Of a stretch of DNA of 64,000 nucleotides, positions 5,705 to 38,210 are shown piece by piece. The notes under the pieces are model-generated. The model was not told where the DNA came from and did no database searches. It saw only the letters and a list, made by a program, of their open reading frames with translations. The position numbers were made by a program, and so were the translations under genes. The stretch is taken from the NCBI GenBank assembly GCA_027459785.1, contig DAIDGU010000046.1, positions 1-64,000 on the forward strand, given 5' to 3'. Source of the DNA: Ktedonobacteria bacterium (GTDB lineage Bacteria > Chloroflexota > Ktedonobacteria > Ktedonobacterales > JACDGC01). How positions within the stretch are numbered: position 1 is the stretch's first letter; each line of letters opens with the position of its first letter.

Positions 5705-6574
5705 ATGGCGATGGCGACACAACCGATCGATCAATTCAGTGCGCGGTTACAAAACGGTATCAAGACGGTGCTGGGCGGCAAAGCTCCCGCGCCGCGTCGG
5801 GTGAAAAACTGGCTGCATGGCACGCCCATCCACCATCCGGCGCATCCCGCGCTGGTGAGCCTGCCCATCGGCGCGCTGGCCGTCGCCTCGGCGCTGGATG
5901 CGCTGTGGCTGGGCAACCGGCGCAAGCGGGCCTGGGCGGCGGAAGGGGGCCGCGTGGTGACGCTGCTGGGTGCGGGCGGCGCGCTGGCCTCGATCCTCAC
6001 CGGCATGGCGGATTGGAGCGAGACGGACGGCGAGGCGCGACGGTTGGGCCTGGTGCACGGCGCGGTCAATGTCGGCACCTTCGGCCTCTATGCCGTTTCC
6101 ACGGCGCTCCGCCTGGGGCGCAAGCGCGGCGACAGCGTGCCGGCGGCGCTGCTGGGCTTCGTTGGCACGGCGCTGCTGACCTTCACCGGCTACCTCGGCG
6201 GCGAGATCGTCTATAAGTACGGCACCGACGTGAACCATACTGCCTGGGACGAGGAGCAGCGCGACTTCGTGCGCGTCATGGCACTGGCGGATCTGCCGCA
6301 GGGCCGGCTGACGCGCGGCGAGGTGGCGGGCGTCGCCATCGTGTTGCTGCGCGACGGCGATAGCATCAGCGCCCTCGATGCGACCTGCACGCATGCCGGT
6401 GGGCCGCTGGACCAGGGAACGCTGCACGACCACGTCGTCACCTGCCCCTGGCACGGCTCGCAGTTCTGCCTGCGCGATGGCAGCGTGGAGGATGGTCCCG
6501 CGACGGTGCCGGAGCGCGTCTATGATGTGCGTGTGCGCGACGGTCAGGTGGAAGCGCGTTTGGCGAAGGTCTAG
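5705..6574 (+). CDS. DUF2231-like membrane domain fused to Rieske [2Fe-2S] domain
   Basis: Rieske motifs CTHAGGPLD and CPWHGSQFC; N-terminal multi-TM region; start MAMATQPIDQF. Confidence 0.85.
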   Translation: MAMATQPIDQFSARLQNGIKTVLGGKAPAPRRVKNWLHGTPIHHPAHPALVSLPIGALAVASALDALWLGNRRKRAWAAEGGRVVTLLGAGGALASILTGMADWSETDGEARRLGLVHGAVNVGTFGLYAVSTALRLGRKRGDSVPAALLGFVGTALLTFTGYLGGEIVYKYGTDVNHTAWDEEQRDFVRVMALADLPQGRLTRGEVAGVAIVLLRDGDSISALDATCTHAGGPLDQGTLHDHVVTCPWHGSQFCLRDGSVEDGPATVPERVYDVRVRDGQVEARLAKV

Positions 6575-6636
6575 CGCCACGGATACACAAAAGGGAGCGG
6601 ATGGCGCACCACCCACTCCCACTAGCTTCGCAAACA

Positions 6637-7038
6637 CTAGGCGGCTTTGACATCCACCGTGCCGCCGGCTTCTTCCAGCTTGGCCTTGAGCGTGGCGGAC
6701 TCTTCCTTCGAGACGCCCTCTTTGATCGGCTGAGGCGCGCCCTCGACGAGATCCTTGGCCTCTTTCAGGCCCAGGCCCGTCAGTTCGCGGACGACTTTGA
6801 TCACGCCGATCTTCTTGGCGGGATCGGCCAGGCCGGAGAGGACGACATTGAACTCGGTCGGCTCTTCCGCCACCGGGGCCGCGGCTTCGCCGCCGGTGGG
6901 CATCGCCATCGGCATCCCCATCGGCATCGCCGCCGCCGCTGTCACGCCCCACTTGTCTTGCAGGGTCTTGGTGAGTTGCACCAGATCGAGTACATTCAGT
7001 TGTTCGATCTGCGCGATGATTTCATCTACCTTCGCCAT
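6637..7038 (-). CDS. rplL: 50S ribosomal protein L7/L12
   Basis: [41 protein letters not shown]; start [12 protein letters not shown]. Confidence 0.97.
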
Positions 7039-7144
7039 GATGTGGTTTCCTCTTTTTCTGTTATGTGTCGCACTGGCAGACATATTTATCTGCTCTACAA
7101 AGACCCGGAGGACAAACATTCCTGTCTGTCACGGTGGGGCGAGA

Positions 7145-7669
7145 TCAGAAGGTCGCGCCCTGTTTTTCGGCGTAATTGTGCAGGATCTGCACGAGGTCGC
7201 GCAGCGGTGCGCCGACGAGGCCGGCGGTCTGGTTGAGCGGCCCCTGGACCGTGCCGACGGCCTGGGCGCGCAGATTATCGCGGCCCGGCAATTTCGCCAG
7301 GCTTTCCAGTTGCGCGGCGTTCAGCTTTTGTGAGCCAAGCATGCCGCCTTTAACGGTGACGATCTTCGAGGTGCGGACGTAGTCCAGCACGGCTTTCGCG
7401 GCGCTCATCTCGTCGTCATAGCCGATGGCGACGGAGGTTGGCCCGTTGAGCACATCATCGACGTTGGCGACGCCGGCTTCCCGCGTGGCATTGCGGAACA
7501 GCGTATTCTTGACGACCACGAAGTCTAGCCCGCTGCCGCGCAGTTTGTGGCGCAGATCGTTCTGGTCGGCGACGTTCAGCCCTTGCGTTTGCATCAACAC
7601 CAGCGCTTTCATGCGCCGGAGCTTGTCGGTCAGCGATTGGATGATCTCGCTCTTGCGTTGGGTAGGCAT
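7145..7669 (-). CDS. rplJ: 50S ribosomal protein L10
   Basis: MPTQRKSEIIQSLTDKLRRMKALVLMQTQGL...; upstream of rplL. Confidence 0.96.
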   Translation of the reverse strand: MPTQRKSEIIQSLTDKLRRMKALVLMQTQGLNVADQNDLRHKLRGSGLDFVVVKNTLFRNATREAGVANVDDVLNGPTSVAIGYDDEMSAAKAVLDYVRTSKIVTVKGGMLGSQKLNAAQLESLAKLPGRDNLRAQAVGTVQGPLNQTAGLVGAPLRDLVQILHNYAEKQGATF

Positions 7670-30441: not shown

Positions 30442-30657
30442 TTAGATGGTCATGCTTTCACGCAGAACAGGGCGATCAGCGATTTCTTGACGGCTTTGTT
30501 CGCGATTCTCCTCTAAAATCATGTGGATGGCTTCTTTTAAATTTTCGCGGGCCTCATCAAGCGTCGCCCCTTGCGAGTTGGCACCAGGCAGTTCTTCGAC
30601 AGAGCCAATCCACCAGGGACCGTCTTGCTCGAAAATAGCGATAAACGTATTGGTCAT
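30442..30657 (-). CDS. hicB: HicB-like antitoxin
   Basis: FIAIFEQDGPWWIGSVEELPGANSQGATLDEARENLKEAIHMIL. Confidence 0.85.
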   Translation of the reverse strand: MTNTFIAIFEQDGPWWIGSVEELPGANSQGATLDEARENLKEAIHMILEENREQSRQEIADRPVLRESMTI

Positions 30658-30885: not shown

Positions 30886-30909
30886 CTTTATCAGGGGCGG
30901 TATAAAAAC

Positions 30910-30959
30910 GAGGTCAGGCGTAGCCTGACCTCAGTGGGTGGAGATGGGGGGGAGTTGAA
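30910..30959. repeat. Distal att site: ssrA 3'-end fragment plus adjacent hairpin
   Basis: gaggtcaggcgtagcctgacctc hairpin followed by the att core; matches 37817-37866 imperfectly. Confidence 0.85.
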
Positions 30960-31099
30960 ATCTTGTTCAAACGTCCGCACTCGTCCATCTCTATGCCTGG
31001 GTCGGCCTATTTCCTGGCTTTTCTTTCCGTCATCATACCACAAAGTCCGTCTCTGTTTTTCGGCTCTGGGGTCAGGGTTGGGGTCAAAGTTTCACTTTG

Positions 31100-31555
31100 C
31101 TATGGCAACTGCACCAAAGCCAGTAGTATACCTTTAAATGTGTGAGGTGTACTTGCCATTGCTTTATCGACAACTTGCCTATACCTTCTTCGTATATCGT
31201 AACGTTCTAACCGAAAATTTGTATCTATGTCGCCATTAAATACAAAATTGCCAAAAGGTGAAAACAAATGCCAAGATTTATCACCAGGGCCATCAATACC
31301 GGTAGCACCGTCTATTTCCCATCTACCTTTTTTTGTTATGAAGTAAAATCTATACGGATTGTTGGGTAAAAGTTGAATGTTAAGTGCGTTAGCAATTTCC
31401 GGTGAAAGAGCTGCTTCAAGTTTGCGCTTGTATTGATTTACATAATCCGCAATTTGTTGCTTTTCTCTTGCCTCTTTGGCTTTTCTCTCTTCCTCGGCAC
31501 GTTGTTGTTCTAATTGCATCAGCCGCTGGATTTCTTTGGGATCTGGCTGAGACAT
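31100..31555 (-). CDS. Element-encoded hypothetical protein with charged N-terminal coiled coil
   Basis: ORF; EQQRAEEERKAKEAREKQQ segment. Confidence 0.6.
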   Translation of the reverse strand: MSQPDPKEIQRLMQLEQQRAEEERKAKEAREKQQIADYVNQYKRKLEAALSPEIANALNIQLLPNNPYRFYFITKKGRWEIDGATGIDGPGDKSWHLFSPFGNFVFNGDIDTNFRLERYDIRRRYRQVVDKAMASTPHTFKGILLALVQLP

Positions 31556-31574
31556 AATGATTCTCCTCTCACTG

Positions 31575-33038
31575 TCACCTCTTTAGGTGAACACATTCTT
31601 GATATGCTCTCACTATACGTGAAGGGCTGGGCTTCGTCAAGTCAAGCTCATATGCATGCTCATCCAAGTCGTACCGCGGCGAAAAGAATAGGTGTTTGAT
31701 AAGTTGCATACCTTCATCGCTGAAAGCATAGGCATAGAGCTTCGTTACCTGTATTGAGGGATAGTTTTCGCACCAGAAATTTATGATGCCTTGCAACAGT
31801 TGGCGAAAGTCGTTTCGATGTTCCGGGCGAATAATGGTAGAGGCAACATAGCCAACATAGCTATGGCCTGGTTCGTACATGTAGATATCGTTGGCGGTGA
31901 TATCCTTTTCGCTCATCTCTCCTTTCAGAATGCGTAGGATAGTTGCCTCATCCATTGGCATAATGGTCAAGGCTCCCCATACATCTTTGCGGTTGTTGGC
32001 ATCGAACATGATACGACAGGCACGTGGGTTCTTCTCCCACCATGTTCGGGTGATGGAAGTATCCACGGCGTTATCTGGGCCATACACTTCGTAATCGAGC
32101 GCCAGGACATAAGGTAGGTCGCTTACTCGTATCCAGTCGGTTGCCGCTTTTTCGGTGGGTTGTTGTATAGTTTGTGTTTGTTGCTTCTCGTGGCGTTTCA
32201 TACGGCGCTGGCGGTTTTTGATGGCACTCTGATATTCCTTTACCAGGTCGGATGTTGGCTTCTTCTCCGTCAGATCCAGCACAAAGGGCTTACGCTCATC
32301 TCCGAGCGGGCCTTTCCCTGCGGGCATGCCAACAAAACCGAGCTTGCGTGCCAGGCGCTCACCGTCTTCGGTATTTGCCATTGTATAAATTCTGCAGATT
32401 GTAACTCCTCGCTCTGCCAGCATGATAAGGTAACGCATTGTTTCGCGTAAGAGGATGGCGGCGTAGAAAGTCGTTCTTAAGTCGTAGCATGCGATAATGC
32501 TGACGACATAGCAATCTAAGGGCATATCAGGCGTAAAGGGGCGATATTCTTCCGGCCTGATATCTGATTCATCCATTTGAAAGTGAATAAGCCGGTCAAT
32601 GATGCCATCAGCCAGGGGACTCATAGTGATACTGCCCGCTACTCGTCCGGTTGCTGTATCTTTCAGCACATGGATACATTCAGGATTGTAAGGGAACCGG
32701 GCCATGATATCTTGTGGCGCGATGATACCCACATCGCCCCATACCGTGCGCTCTATCGAGACAAGCTGCTCTAAGTCTTCAAATGTAGGAACCATAAATG
32801 CTAGCCTCTCTGGTTTCGCCTCATACCCTTTGACATTATCGCTACGTTCCTTCGCCAGCGTGTCAATTGCATTCTTTGGATAAACAGCCTGTTTTCTCAG
32901 TGGCAAGGCAATTTTGGGTATCTGCCCTTGCTCAACAAGATAGTAAAACGTGCTGCGTGGAATATCGAGACGCCGGATAGCTTCGGCGGCGGTGTAGTAA
33001 TCCTGCATAACTGCTGCTCCTGGAAAATGTCCATGCAT
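31575..33038 (-). CDS. N-terminal HTH (MerR/excisionase-like) protein with two GNAT-like regions
   Basis: YYTAAEAIRRLDIPRSTFYYLVEQGQIPKIAL HTH; two internally similar ~200-aa regions resembling GNAT folds. Start may be MQDYYTAAEA. Confidence 0.65.
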   Translation of the reverse strand: MHGHFPGAAVMQDYYTAAEAIRRLDIPRSTFYYLVEQGQIPKIALPLRKQAVYPKNAIDTLAKERSDNVKGYEAKPERLAFMVPTFEDLEQLVSIERTVWGDVGIIAPQDIMARFPYNPECIHVLKDTATGRVAGSITMSPLADGIIDRLIHFQMDESDIRPEEYRPFTPDMPLDCYVVSIIACYDLRTTFYAAILLRETMRYLIMLAERGVTICRIYTMANTEDGERLARKLGFVGMPAGKGPLGDERKPFVLDLTEKKPTSDLVKEYQSAIKNRQRRMKRHEKQQTQTIQQPTEKAATDWIRVSDLPYVLALDYEVYGPDNAVDTSITRTWWEKNPRACRIMFDANNRKDVWGALTIMPMDEATILRILKGEMSEKDITANDIYMYEPGHSYVGYVASTIIRPEHRNDFRQLLQGIINFWCENYPSIQVTKLYAYAFSDEGMQLIKHLFFSPRYDLDEHAYELDLTKPSPSRIVRAYQECVHLKR

Positions 33039-33066
33039 CTATCATACCACACATTGGATGTTTTAG

Positions 33067-33181
33067 ACATCTGGACATTACCAGATGTTTTGGACGTTTG
33101 GAGAATGAATTGGACAGATGGTATTGACATTTTCCGAGTGAGGTGATATCATATGGACAGATGGTAATTACCATCTGTCCA
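33067..33181. promoter_or_regulatory. Operator-like control region with multiple inverted repeats
   Basis: ACATCTGG-6-CCAGATGT (33067-33088); TGGACAGATGGTA half site near 33111; 28-bp perfect palindrome TGGACAGATGGTAATTACCATCTGTCCA (33154-33181). Confidence 0.8.
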
Positions 33182-33440
33182 ATAGCTCTTGAACAAGTGA
33201 ATAGGCCGGACATGGGGGCCATATCCCATGAGTGTCGTCCCAAGAAGCGCACCAAGGCAGCGGGTGGGAGTGTTCAGCCCATAACGACATGTCCCCACTG
33301 CTCAGAGTTAGCGAGACCTTGCAATGGGAAATGGGACGGCACGATGGCGGGCGTGTAACAGGTGCTATGCAGGGTTCGATACCCTGCCGCTCGTCCTCTG
33401 GTTCACTGTGAACCAGAACAACATAAAGGGAGAACACAGC

Positions 33441-33776
33441 ATGCAACTCAATGGCAAAGTCTTGGCAGGTACGACGACGACCATTACCACCAAAAAAGGC
33501 ACGGCGCTGGATAAGACGCGCCTCAAGGTGTTGGACATCGGCGAAGAGGTGGCCGGGGATGTCTCGGTGTACTGGATTGATTTCATCGGTGACACGGCAC
33601 TCACGGAGGATGAATTGGCGGCGGTCAGCCATGAAGAGGTGGTGATTGAGATTCGCCGCATCTCGGCCAGCGGGTCCAATGGCAAGACCTATCTCAATCT
33701 GACGGGCGGTGCGGTGCTGCACGGTGGCATGCCGGTGCAGGCCAAGCTGCTCAAAGATAAAGGGAAACGTGTTTAG
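33441..33776 (+). CDS. Element-encoded hypothetical protein (111 aa)
   Basis: MQLNGKVLAGTTTTITTKKGTALDKTRLKVLDIGEEV... preceded by AAAGGGAGAACACAGC. Confidence 0.65.
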   Translation: MQLNGKVLAGTTTTITTKKGTALDKTRLKVLDIGEEVAGDVSVYWIDFIGDTALTEDELAAVSHEEVVIEIRRISASGSNGKTYLNLTGGAVLHGGMPVQAKLLKDKGKRV

Positions 33777-33845
33777 CAAAAGCGCACGGGGGAAAGTTAG
33801 CGGCTTTCTCCCGTGCTTGTCTGTTCGTAAAGGGAGAACATAGAC

Positions 33846-34055
33846 ATGTTCATTGATACCACATGGCGGCGTCCAGCGCAAGAGACGACCTGGCCCGCTT
33901 CGTATCGTGGGGTTGGCCTGGCTATCGAACGGCTAGCCGATGGCTGGTATATCGGGATGGCAGAGGGCGGCTATCGCTCGCGGCCCTATCCTGATTCACA
34001 AGCGGCACTGGCCGACGTGACGGCATGGATTGATAGCCAGGTGGTGATGCGGTGA
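33846..34055 (+). CDS. Element-encoded small hypothetical protein
   Basis: ORF with upstream AAAGGGAGAACATAGAC, overlapping the next start. Confidence 0.6.
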   Translation: MFIDTTWRRPAQETTWPASYRGVGLAIERLADGWYIGMAEGGYRSRPYPDSQAALADVTAWIDSQVVMR

Positions 34056-34780
34056 CACAACCAGCACCACAAGCAACGGCATCGGCTGATGAACAAGAAC
34101 ACGAATTGCCGATGCTGGCAGGGATTGCGGGTTTCTTCCACTGGCTGGAAGAGTTCTTGGTTATCCTTTCCGGGCCGTTCCTGACCTTCGGGTTGGGCAT
34201 CGGCCTGGTGGATTTGCTGTCGGATGGGGCGTTGTTCGTCAACGCTCCTGCATTACTCTATGTGTGGGCCATCGCTCAAACGGTGGGCGTGGATGGCCAG
34301 CTCGTCGGCACCTGGGCGCGGGTCGGGCGGGCCTTCCGTAAACAGTCCTGGGGGGCGGTGATTGGTTTTGTCATCCTGGGTGTGGTGCTGGCCTATGTCG
34401 GCTTCGTCGCGGCACTGGTCTTCGCCTACCAGCAAGCCTATCACCTGACCACAGCGGGCGCGCTTGCCAAGTTGGGCTTTGATACCGTCACCTGGCTGTG
34501 GCAACGGACGGCGGTCTCTGTCGGTCTGGTGTGTTTGTCGGGCTTGCTGCGCTATCAGAAGCCGCGTCCGGTGGTCGTGGATGTGGAGGCAGAGATCCAA
34601 CGTATCGAGAACGCGCGACGGATTCAGGCGGCGAAAACGGCGGCCCAGGGCGACCGGCTGCGGGGGTTGGTCGGGGTGGTCAAAGGCACGGCGCAGGCGG
34701 CGCAAGGTACGGGAAGTGGTGCATCGGCCTCCCCTTTGCCGTCACACAACGGCCAGGCGAACCAAGGCAAACGGTCGTAG
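34052..34780 (+). CDS. Element-encoded membrane protein
   Basis: Several hydrophobic segments; ATGA-type overlap with the preceding ORF. Confidence 0.65.
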   Translation: MTQPAPQATASADEQEHELPMLAGIAGFFHWLEEFLVILSGPFLTFGLGIGLVDLLSDGALFVNAPALLYVWAIAQTVGVDGQLVGTWARVGRAFRKQSWGAVIGFVILGVVLAYVGFVAALVFAYQQAYHLTTAGALAKLGFDTVTWLWQRTAVSVGLVCLSGLLRYQKPRPVVVDVEAEIQRIENARRIQAAKTAAQGDRLRGLVGVVKGTAQAAQGTGSGASASPLPSHNGQANQGKRS

Positions 34781-34920
34781 TGGGGTTGCGGGCGAACGCG
34801 GAATTACCGTCACAACGGATGACGGCGGCGGAATATGCGCGGTTGCAGGAAGCGCGGGAACGGCTGGGCTTAGGGCATTTGGGCCAGCGCCGGGGGGGAC
34901 GGTCGGCAGCAGGGGACTAA
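34780..34920 (+). CDS. Small ORF (GTG start, 46 aa) overlapping the preceding stop
   Basis: TAGTG overlap; VGLRANAELPSQRMTAAEYARLQEARERLGLGHLGQRRGGRSAAGD. Confidence 0.4.
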   Translation: MGLRANAELPSQRMTAAEYARLQEARERLGLGHLGQRRGGRSAAGD

Positions 34921-34999
34921 CCAAACACCTGTGCTAGAGCATGCTGCACCCCTCTTGTTTTTCGGGGACTGGACGGCCCCCGCTTGACGCCCTCTGACC

Positions 35000-35066
35000 A
35001 GCACGCAGGAAGGGACCCCGTCAAGAGAGGCACGACGCCGACCTTGACGGGGAGGGAATGCGTGCT
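35000..35066. repeat. Nested inverted repeat upstream of rep (candidate origin)
   Basis: AGCACGCA (35000-35007) / TGCGTGCT (35059-35066) enclosing CCCCGTCAAG (35016-35025) / CTTGACGGGG (35043-35052). Confidence 0.7.
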
Positions 35067-35209
35067 ACTGTTGGGCGGCATGCGGGGGCGTCTCGAACCC
35101 CTTGGACCACCTAGACCCCTAGACCACCTGCGCCCAGGGAAAGCTGACCTTTGGGAGTGCGGATACAGTATCACGCACTCCCTAACTTACCACAAGGGGA
35201 GAACGAGAC

Positions 35210-36397
35210 ATGACGTATCAGGTGGTGAACCATCACATAGACACCTTGCTCTTGAATGTCAAGGGCAAGATGCCACAGGCTACGGCTGAACGCCTTGACC
35301 AACTGCAAGGGCTGGCAAAAGAGATAGAGCAGGATGTCCAGAGCGATTGGCAGTTTCGCGGGCATCCGCTCTTCCTGAAACCGCACGGGGCGAAAAATTG
35401 GCGGTGGATTCTGGCGTGTGGGGATGGTTATCTGCATATCGACCTGGGCAAGGGCAAGCTGAACGGCATTATAGCGAAAGTGCGGTTTTCCTCCTTCCTG
35501 CTGCACGAGATGGGGGCGGGCGTGGCGCTCACCGCTGTCTATGCGTTCCTGGCGGCCATGCTGGGCGAGGGGTTCACCTTGCAAGTGAGCGAGGTGCATA
35601 TCTGCGCCGATATCGCTGGGTGGGAACTTTCCCTCGACGATGCCGGGCGGTTCGTCTCGCAGGGGCGGGCCAAATCAGCGCGGCTGGCCGATGACGAGGG
35701 GAGCGCGGATGACGGGCAGATCGTGCGGCTCACCGGGCGGCGTTGCTCGGAATATAAGTTTAGTCAAGGGGCACCGCACTCCTGCGACATCTACGATAAG
35801 ACCTTGGAAGTGAAGGTGCGGGGCAAGCAGTGGTTCCATGAGATTTGGAAGGCCAACGGGTGGGATGGGGAAAGCAAAGTGACGCGGGTCGAGTTTCGCT
35901 ACAAACGGGAATGCTTACATGAGATGGGGATTGAATGCCCTTATGACATGCTCGACCGGCTGCCGGACCTGTGGGCCTACAGCACACAGAAATGGCTCCG
36001 CCATACCGTGCCAGACAATGACAGCAATCAGAGCCGGTGGGACACCTCGGACGTGTGGGACGTGGTGCAAGGGGCATCGGGCAACGATGATGCCGTGCCA
36101 GCCGTGCGTACCAAAAAAGTGGAACTGGACACTGAGCGGTCGCAAGCGGGATTCGTGGGCTACGCGACGAGCTGGGCGATAAGGGCAGTGTGGCTCTTTC
36201 AGGGAGCCATTGAAAACGAGCGGGGCATGCCCAAAGGGTTGCCGCTGGAAGTCGTGGAAGAAGATGGGGGCGGATTCCTGGGCTGGGCGTATGAACAGAT
36301 GCAAGCATACCTCACAGAGCGCAAAGAGGCGACGTTCGCGGAACTGATGCACGCCAAAGGCAAGAAAATTACCAAGCTGTTAGCGGCAGCGGCCTAA
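35210..36397 (+). CDS. Replication initiation factor-like protein (Rep_trans-type)
   Basis: ADIAGWELSL, CDIYDKTLEVKVRGKQWFHEIW, TRVEFRYKRECLHEMG; upstream of xis and int. Confidence 0.7.
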   Translation: MTYQVVNHHIDTLLLNVKGKMPQATAERLDQLQGLAKEIEQDVQSDWQFRGHPLFLKPHGAKNWRWILACGDGYLHIDLGKGKLNGIIAKVRFSSFLLHEMGAGVALTAVYAFLAAMLGEGFTLQVSEVHICADIAGWELSLDDAGRFVSQGRAKSARLADDEGSADDGQIVRLTGRRCSEYKFSQGAPHSCDIYDKTLEVKVRGKQWFHEIWKANGWDGESKVTRVEFRYKRECLHEMGIECPYDMLDRLPDLWAYSTQKWLRHTVPDNDSNQSRWDTSDVWDVVQGASGNDDAVPAVRTKKVELDTERSQAGFVGYATSWAIRAVWLFQGAIENERGMPKGLPLEVVEEDGGGFLGWAYEQMQAYLTERKEATFAELMHAKGKKITKLLAAAA

Positions 36398-36413
36398 CGC
36401 AAGAGGGGGAACG

Positions 36414-36617
36414 ATGAAAAAACGCGCGGTGGTGGAAGAACAGGCACCTATCAAGCTGTTACTGACGGTGGAAGAAGCGGCTCAGGCGTTAGGCTTGGGC
36501 CGCTCGTTGTTGTACGACCTTCTGGCACGCAAAGAGATTTTCAGCGTCAAGATTGGGCGCGTTCGTCGTATTCCCCTTGCGGCTTTGCAAGCATTCATCG
36601 AACAGAAGATAGCGTAG
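36414..36617 (+). CDS. Excisionase-like HTH protein
   Basis: LLTVEEAAQALGLGRSLLYDLLARKEIFSVKIGRVRRIPLAALQAFI. Confidence 0.88.
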   Translation: MKKRAVVEEQAPIKLLLTVEEAAQALGLGRSLLYDLLARKEIFSVKIGRVRRIPLAALQAFIEQKIA

Positions 36618-36633
36618 GGAGGGGGGAAACAAC

Positions 36634-37761
36634 ATGCCTAAAAAACGTGGCAACGGCGAGGGGAATATCAAAAAGCGTTCAGATGGGCGTTGGGAAGCTC
36701 GTATCTCGACAGAGGATGGGAAACGCAAGAGTATATATACCAACACTCGCCAAGAGGCGGCACGGCTCATGAACGCTGCTCTTAAAGATAAAGAGGATGG
36801 TATCCCAATTATTACGGATAGCCAGACGGTCGGGGAATACTTGACCTCCTGGCTTGAAACTGTGCGATATCAGGTCAAGCCTAGCACCTGGCGGCGCTAC
36901 GGAAACTTCGTCAAGGGGCATATCATCCCGGCGCTTGGGAAGATACCGCTCTCGAAGCTTTCCGCTCAGCAAGTTCAGATGCTTTATACAAAGGTGCTGA
37001 ACAAAGGGCTGTCAACGACAACCGTGCATCATATACATGGCATGTTGCATCGGGCGCTCGAAGATGCTCTGAGGATGGCACTTATCCAGCGCAATGTGAC
37101 AGAGATGGTAAAACCGCCTCGTCGTCGGCATCATGAGATGGCTATTCTAACCGCCGAACAGGCTCGAACAATGCTTGCGGCGGTGGTGGGCGATAGATTC
37201 GAGGCGCTCTATGTGCTGGCGCTTACAACAGGCATGCGCCAAGGGGAATTGTTCGCCCTAGAATGGAAAGATGTAGATTGGCAACATAGCACGTTGCTTA
37301 TCCGTGCCTCAGTGCAAGAGGATGGCAGCAAGTTCATAATAGCAGAGCCAAAGACGGCATACTCTCGGCGTCGGATTGGGCTGACGCCAATGGCATTGGC
37401 GGCATTGCAGACGCATCGGGAACGAATCAAACAAGAAAAAGCCTTGCTCGGCGCTGCCTGGGAAACCGCCTATGATTTGGTGTTTCCTAACACTGTCGGC
37501 GGGGTGATGATACCTGATAACTTCGTTAAGCGCAATTTCAAGGCACTGCTGCGGAAAACTGGCTTGCCTGATATCCGGTTTCATGACCTGCGCCATACCG
37601 CAGCTACGTTGATGCTCAGCCGTGGCATTAACCCCAAGGTGGTATCAGAGATGTTGGGGCATTCTGACGTGGGTATCACTTTGCGGATTTACGCGCATGT
37701 GCTGCCGCATATGCAACAGGCAGCGGTGAATGCCATGCAAGCACTATTCGATGAAGAATAG
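36634..37761 (+). CDS. Tyrosine recombinase/phage-type integrase
   Basis: TGMRQGELFALEWKDVD, FHDLRHTAATLMLSRGINPKVVSEMLGHSDVGITLRIYAHVLP. Confidence 0.97.
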   Translation: MPKKRGNGEGNIKKRSDGRWEARISTEDGKRKSIYTNTRQEAARLMNAALKDKEDGIPIITDSQTVGEYLTSWLETVRYQVKPSTWRRYGNFVKGHIIPALGKIPLSKLSAQQVQMLYTKVLNKGLSTTTVHHIHGMLHRALEDALRMALIQRNVTEMVKPPRRRHHEMAILTAEQARTMLAAVVGDRFEALYVLALTTGMRQGELFALEWKDVDWQHSTLLIRASVQEDGSKFIIAEPKTAYSRRRIGLTPMALAALQTHRERIKQEKALLGAAWETAYDLVFPNTVGGVMIPDNFVKRNFKALLRKTGLPDIRFHDLRHTAATLMLSRGINPKVVSEMLGHSDVGITLRIYAHVLPHMQQAAVNAMQALFDEE

Positions 37762-37845
37762 GGCAATTCTGGCGGTTGGGGTCAGGGTTGGGGTCAACAG
37801 GGGTAGCAAAAGCAACGAGGCCAGGCATGGCCTGACCTCGATGGG

Positions 37846-38210
37846 TGGAGATGGGGGGGAGTTGAACCCCCCGTCCAAATATGCGCCGGAAACGATGTCC
37901 TACAGGTTTAGCCGATGATTTGCATGTCGCGCGGTGGTCTCCCGTCGGCAGGATACCTTCGCGCCCGGCTCGCTGGTCTCAGGCGGTGCGTAGCGAGCGT
38001 CGGCACCGCAGCCCCTCAGCTAAGTGACACCCGCGCCCCGGCCCGCTGAGAAGAGGACGGACGGATGCGCTTCACTGGGTATTAAGCAGCGAAAGCGAGT
38101 TGTGGCTGCTGTTTGGCAGCTATTGTTTGCTGGTGGTTTAACGAGGGTGGATACCAGCACCTCGACCTGCAATCGATCCCTTCGCCTACCTGTCGATCCC
38201 CAGCATCCCC
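37846..38210 (-). ncRNA. ssrA: tmRNA (ssrA)
   Basis: 5' GGGGATG pairs with 3' CATCTCC; T-arm GGGGG-TTCAACT-CCCCC; tag reading frame ending LAFAA* (38082-38120, putative tag AAKQQPQLAFAA). Confidence 0.92.

Follow-up and report, generated by a model that had tools for sequence, protein, structure and literature searches.

A 6.9-kb element in the ssrA gene of a Ktedonobacteria bacterium is likely an integrative rolling-circle element with a Rep_trans-type initiator

Rolling-circle initiators of the Rep_trans type (PF02486) are known from pT181-family and RepSTK1 plasmids. RS1-type satellites of filamentous phages (inoviruses) combine such an initiator with a repressor and have no assembly genes, RS1 being packaged with the help of CTXphi. 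Other elements relevant here are the inoviruses themselves, for which the pI/Zot morphogenesis ATPase is the only universal marker (PMC6813254), and the integrative and conjugative elements (ICEs), whose MOBT relaxases have the Rep_trans fold and active site as well as an N-terminal helix-turn-helix (HTH) found only in ICE proteins (PMC6499999). Actinomycete integrative and conjugative elements (AICEs) are defined by an FtsK/SpoIIIE-type Tra protein together with RepSA, RepAM or Prim-Pol, and have been reported only from Actinomycetales (PMC3218068). We analyzed a 64,000-nucleotide stretch of DNA (the window) from a soil Ktedonobacteria bacterium (Ktedonobacterales, Chloroflexota), which is part of a 102-kb contig in a 4.84-Mb genome (88 contigs, 94% complete). 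A 6.9-kb element is bounded here by two repeats at the tmRNA gene, ssrA. We think it likely that this is an integrative rolling-circle element from a Ktedonobacteria-specific family and that it relies on a helper for its movement.

Boundaries and integration module

The features that define the ends of the element are as follows.

30935..30959: left attachment repeat, apparently the displaced ssrA 3' end; exact 25-bp copy of 37842-37866, adjoined by the old terminator (30907-30933)
31067..31087, plus strand: a GGGGTCA pair with 12-bp spacing, probably the integrase arm sites on the left; all 21 bp recur perfectly at 37777-37797
36414..36617, plus strand: Xis, recombination directionality factor (HTH_17 2.5e-13; TIGR01764 6e-14)
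36634..37761, plus strand: Int, tyrosine integrase (PF00589 4e-27; PHROG integrase 5e-81)
37777..37797, plus strand: a second GGGGTCA pair with 12-bp spacing, probably the integrase arm sites on the right; perfect repeat of the left pair
37842..37866: right attachment repeat, completing the ssrA 3' end (tmRNA call and repeat), with an apparently element-borne terminator at 37814-37840

ARAGORN locates a single tmRNA gene in the window, at 37844-38210 on the minus strand. The last 25 bp of ssrA (TTCAACTCCCCCCCATCTCCACCCA) recur as an exact direct repeat with a spacing of 6907 bp, as a first-pass annotation of the window had described. Together with the adjoining terminators, the two copies align over 53 nt with 91% identity (30907-30959 and 37814-37866). 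A 26-nt att pattern with up to 3 mismatches matches twice in the 64 kb, at the two att copies, and never in 100 shuffles, and the 25-bp repeat has no third copy anywhere in the genome. In a genome of the same genus (G001), where ssrA is unoccupied, the downstream flank reads ACTGAGGTCAGG, like the copy at 30907 and unlike the int-proximal copy. Because of this resemblance, the left copy looks like the displaced original end of ssrA, and the int-proximal 3' end like one brought in by the element.

The first-pass annotation had also placed an integrase next to ssrA, with Xis and a Rep_trans-like initiator upstream, and Pfam, PHROG and NCBIfam matches bear this out for Int and Xis. The genes are ordered rep-xis-int towards ssrA. 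The integrase adjoins its target gene, and a second copy of the target 3' end lies at the opposite end of the element, the arrangement by which tyrosine-recombinase integrative elements are recognized. Related integrases adjoin several ssrA genes in other genomes. GGGGTCA occurs only four times in the element, as two pairs, one 107 bp inward from the left core and the other 44 bp inward from the right core; a 12.5-kb ssrA element of another genome (L053 in G017) has the same layout, with GTTGCTAC motifs in pairs spaced by 11 bp. From this arrangement, the pairs are probably integrase arm sites. Int would recombine the 25-bp core in ssrA through the paired, 12-bp-spaced arm sites on both sides, with the element supplying a replacement 3' end and terminator so that the tmRNA would stay intact; Xis would shift the reaction towards excision.

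In many Ktedonobacterales genomes (L069-L098), paired motifs spaced by 11-12 bp lie downstream of ssrA at a distance of ~50-90 bp; G002, for instance, has TTGACCAC twice. These pairs may be integrase arm sites belonging to further ssrA elements.

The Rep initiator and its candidate origin

Three features form the replication module.

34976..35089, plus strand: long, imperfect hairpin preceding rep, which may be a single-strand origin or an origin accessory
35153..35182, plus strand: candidate double-strand origin, GGGAGTGCG-GATACAGTATCA-CGCACTCCC, a hairpin ~30-60 bp upstream of rep with loop AGTATCA
35210..36397, plus strand: Rep, Rep_trans-type rolling-circle initiator (AlphaFold model, Foldseek, invariant catalytic residues)

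Rep is too diverged for a direct family assignment: PF02486 does not match it at E<=1, although distant family members do match, and single-sequence and profile searches of the PDB gave no hit. The fold search alone succeeded. Its AlphaFold model is confident (pLDDT 87), and the best PDB folds found by Foldseek are the Rep_trans initiators 4CIJ, 4CWC and 4CWE (E 1e-11 to 4e-10), followed by TBP, a known look-alike of that fold. The first-pass annotation had proposed such a search, and would have given up its reading had Rep folded as something unrelated to replication initiators; Rep_trans initiators rank first. Across 24 homologues, D11, D134, Y195, K197, E200, R226 and E228 are invariant. 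They correspond, in this order, to the RepSTK1 active-site residues D9, D116, Y179, K181, Q184, R194 and E196 (PMC4797284). The predicted fold, the metal ligands D, D and E and the motif Y-x-K-x-x-E/Q together support the modeled protein as a real Rep_trans-fold (pT181-type) rolling-circle initiator.

A subgroup of Rep relatives, several of them beside Zot-like genes (L104, L105, L107, L124-L126, L128, L067 and L106), has DHYKENE instead of DDYKERE. The second metal-binding Asp is replaced by His (Gln in L106) and Arg226 by Asn, suggesting an altered metal site in these Rep_trans enzymes.

We searched 26 rep loci for hairpins with an AGTA[AT] loop and a stem of 8 bp or more, located no more than 400 nt upstream of rep. 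The loop AGTA[A/T]CA is kept, on stems of varying sequence, in 12 of them, with 0.01 expected by shuffling. A conserved loop on changing stems matches the expectation for a nick site in a cruciform loop, and the hairpin at 35153-35182 is probably the double-strand origin of Rep, presumably nicked in its loop. Similar loops accompany Rep relatives in Planctomycetota, Lysobacteraceae and Firmicutes loci (TTAGTAACA, CCAGTATCACA, TTACTAACAG). As single-stranded DNA (ssDNA), the region 34921-35209 folds at -70.9 kcal/mol (z -6.6; z -10.6 in a sibling element, L033). In the excised element, Rep, using Tyr195 and two Asp and one Glu for metal binding, would nick the AGTATCA loop and start rolling-circle replication (RCR), and the long hairpin may start second-strand synthesis. 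The module resembles pT181-family and RepSTK1 plasmids in fold, in metal and catalytic positions and in the hairpin origin beside rep. It differs in that the element integrates via Int/Xis and that genes for an SSB-like and a membrane protein precede rep.

A core operon shared by sibling elements

The remaining genes lie between the left attachment repeat and rep.

31100..31555, minus strand: 151-amino acid (aa) cargo protein, no match in Pfam, PHROG or NCBIfam, missing from sibling elements
31575..33038, minus strand: 487-aa protein with N-terminal HTH_17 (2.7e-6) and duplicated GNAT-like domain, probable regulator
33109..33183: palindromes resembling operators, located between the two divergent operons (inverted repeats I2 and I10; perfect 28-bp palindrome 33154-33181)
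33441..33776, plus strand: orf111, 111-aa OB-fold SSB/PriB-like protein, probably ssDNA-binding (AlphaFold pLDDT 78; PDB folds)
33846..34055, plus strand: 69-aa conserved protein, present in 4 core loci
34052..34780, plus strand: 242-aa multi-spanning membrane protein with charged C-terminal tail, 86% and 85% identical in L033 and L035
ending at 34920, plus strand: small open reading frame (ORF), last of four small genes in 33441-34920

Three cargo proteins, not recognizable from the sequence alone, had been listed in the first-pass annotation; two of them, 31100-31555 and 31575-33038, are single genes, but 33441-34920 holds four small genes and not one protein. A core of orf111, the 69-aa gene, the 242-aa gene and rep is common to other elements in the same genome that have other integrases. 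One sibling (L033, contig C6; orf111 99% and Rep 93% identical) is attached at a tRNA-Pro gene with a 42-bp repeat, and another (L035, contig C21; 95% and 62%) at a tRNA-Lys gene with a 50-bp repeat. A further element (L037 in G001) uses a tRNA-Pro site with a 49-bp repeat. Relatives with the same genes and no ssrA repeat, which had been named beforehand as a finding that would speak against an integrative element, thus literally exist; as they have other integrases and 42-50-bp tRNA-Pro or tRNA-Lys repeats, they strengthen rather than refute mobility. Against L033, orf111 has a dN/dS of 0.02, rep of 0.06 and the membrane protein of 0.13 (over both siblings, 0.02-0.04 for orf111 and 0.13-0.16 for the membrane protein). 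These low values indicate that the genes are functional and not drifting, with orf111 and rep under strong purifying selection.

A third sibling (L034, G000:C22), beside tRNA-His, is decayed, with a truncated rep N-terminus, stops in orf111 and a still open integrase.

The top PDB folds for orf111 are nearly all OB/SSB/PriB proteins, at modest E-values (4e-3 and up); hhalign gave no significant match between it and the SSB and OB families of the larger elements, and no relatives were found in viral contigs. We propose that it would coat the single strand. A membrane protein lies at the position of the 242-aa gene also in L037, L040 and L047. Relatives of the 487-aa protein occur at 10 of 33 rep loci, and nine of these ten have HTH_17; the GNAT match is weak (one member, E 0.2). 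At the same divergent position, L035 encodes a different HTH protein and L033 a weakly MerR-like protein, which fits an exchangeable repressor. The divergent HTH protein and the palindromic operators probably keep the replication operon silent.

Rep relatives occur in 28 of the 121 Chloroflexota genomes searched. A cultured species, Dictyobacter aurantiacus, has one of the loci (L115). A tyrosine integrase is nearby at 27 of the 33 rep loci examined, and an Xis-like gene at 14. ssrA is a recurrent site in the order, as the first-pass annotation had suggested checking: Rep lies inside bounding repeats, with ssrA on one side and its displaced 3' end on the other, in G017 (31-bp repeat), G019 and G040, and near ssrA also in G043, G030, G039 and G002. 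The larger relatives additionally encode SSB, SprT, a primase-like protein and a lytic transglycosylase or glucosaminidase. The family is widespread in Ktedonobacteria and apparently undescribed; a limited literature search found no paper joining Ktedonobacter with integrative and conjugative elements, so that a description may still exist. An element of ~6 kb at G038:C1:2127032-2133367 also occupies ssrA and is delimited by a displaced copy of the gene's 3' end; it has no Rep belonging to this family.

Movement between cells

The element encodes no translocase, relaxosome partner or phage assembly ATPase, and we therefore judge its movement between cells to be helper-dependent. No FtsK-type Tra is found in the element, in family elements or near related reps, in agreement with the first-pass annotation, and a single Walker A regex match, in orf111, is not a P-loop. 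No Walker A ATPase able to pump DNA or assemble phage was seen in the larger Ktedonobacteria relatives examined. Integrating RCR plasmids and mobilizable or satellite elements are the closest functional parallels in our best reading.

Several points weigh against an integrative rolling-circle element. A clean empty ssrA site was not found, and the left flank is not syntenic in G001. No excised circle was seen, and the predicted attP junction CTCGA-TGGGTGGAGATGGGGGGGAGTTGAA-ATCTTG is absent from the viral contigs searched. The strict origin test is passed by only 12 of 26 loci, the OB-fold call for orf111 comes from six aligned sequences and a single good model (pLDDT 78) among the five built, and for the 487-aa protein, probably a repressor of the replication operon, the argument is purely positional.

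It is conceivable, if doubtful, that Rep also serves as a MOBT-type relaxase, the element being an integrative mobilizable element (IME) that borrows a type IV secretion system (T4SS) from another element. The fold and active site shared with MOBT relaxases (PMC6499999) speak for this, as do a Rep_trans relaxase reported for streptococcal IMEs (PMC7563843) and the reported OB-fold partners in a Gram-positive relaxosome (PMC12614216). The element has the catalytic core and Int/Xis in common with Rep_trans IMEs and MOBT ICEs (ICEBs1, Tn916, ICESt3). Unlike them, it has no coupling protein, no T4SS and no N-terminal HTH: Pfam detects none in Rep, and the model begins with a beta strand. Rep also resembles the Reps of tiny RCR plasmids and phages, and no convincing T4SS was found in the element's own genome, where VirB4 matches are sub-threshold and a coupling protein-like match is isolated. 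We rejected this protein, on contig C35, as a conjugation gene, as it is surrounded by unrelated genes.

Alternatively, the element could be a filamentous-phage satellite or remnant, with Rep and its origin making ssDNA that is packaged by a helper inovirus. Among viral folds, an Inoviridae Rep matches Rep best, and public tblastn matches include Thermus phage Zuza27, Synechococcus phage Yong-M4-251, a Zot-bearing Paenibacillus replicon and tiny plasmids. Rep relatives in other phyla often lie in Zot-(...)-rep-int arrays of inovirus prophages; we thus regard the Rep module as common to phage and non-phage elements. Prophages of this kind (Zuza27, Yong-M4-251, IMG/VR contigs) share with the element the Rep family, in many cases the rep-(xis)-int end, a similar origin loop and an SSB-like gene, and a divergent repressor-like gene would also fit. 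RS1-type satellites likewise pair a repressor with a Rep_trans initiator in the absence of assembly genes, but the element has its own Int/Xis, and no helper was detected. We nevertheless consider this reading unlikely. Zot (PF05707) is absent from the element's own genome (G000, 94% complete) and its family f1, no P-loop protein was found in the Ktedonobacteria elements examined, and no short single-transmembrane (TM) coat-like gene is apparent among the listed ORFs, in the core or elsewhere, although no systematic coat search was made. All 24 Ktedonobacteria Reps group in a single clade (support 0.99) that excludes the Dehalococcoidia-like and Thermus inovirus Reps, and this argues for a history of its own for this family. 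Moreover, replication and integration genes are often swapped among elements (PMC6813254). The element is not itself an inovirus, as pI/Zot is missing.

Zot matches outside family f1 are partial, lie in long ORFs and were read as other ATPases. At L062 (G053:C1:164000-183500), in a 1.5-Mb Chloroflexota genome, a Rep relative is accompanied by a 181-aa P-loop Zot-like protein, SSB, short membrane proteins, a 528-aa secreted/TM protein and a nearby integrase beside tRNA-Ala; by gene content, this is probably an inovirus prophage.

The first-pass annotation had called the element AICE-type, pointing to its rep-xis-int order. The order is present, but it does not identify an AICE, since inovirus prophages whose Rep is of the same family share that end. 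AICEs (pSAM2, SLP1 and relatives) resemble the element in this order, in tRNA/ssrA-type sites, in RCR for the RepSA type and in a mycelial host; they differ in phylum, in Rep type (Pfam gives Rep no match to RepSA, RepAM or Prim-Pol) and in their FtsK-like Tra, and we dropped the label. An FtsK-domain protein encoded close to the C6 sibling (G000:C6:9370-9909) is not part of that element. In an AICE-like scenario, a host FtsK-like pump would transfer the element as double-stranded DNA and the 242-aa membrane protein would play the role of Spd. This would suit the rep-xis-int order, the mycelial, actinomycete-like hosts and the constant place of the membrane protein gene, yet the 242-aa protein has no Spd match and the Tra and Rep findings also count against the scenario, which is improbable. 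We give as little credence to a minimal transfer system of the element's own, built from the membrane protein, the OB-fold protein and Rep-made single strands and unrelated to AICE Tra, T4SS or inovirus assembly; if true, it would be a transfer system in mycelial, spore-forming Chloroflexota. That the element is an inactive remnant retained by drift, as the decayed sibling might suggest, is hard to reconcile with its intact genes, the low dN/dS of orf111 and rep and its perfect end repeats.

A helper-dependent integrative rolling-circle element would belong to a large family of such small elements in Ktedonobacteria, with a predicted origin that is directly testable. The family lies between RCR plasmids, inoviruses and ICEs/IMEs, to all of which the Rep_trans enzyme is common, and, its hosts being mycelial and actinomycete-like, it can be compared with AICEs. 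Genetic tools are scarce in this class, and Int/attP and the origin could be developed into such tools if excision works.

A defence-system scan of the element's cargo gave nothing convincing. In the tRNA-Pro sibling L033, a TIR-domain membrane protein (6216-7145; PF13676 1e-6) is possibly a defence gene. Just beyond the left attachment site of the element lies a HicB-like antitoxin-type ORF (30442-30657), and a similar stretch is found on another contig in G001.

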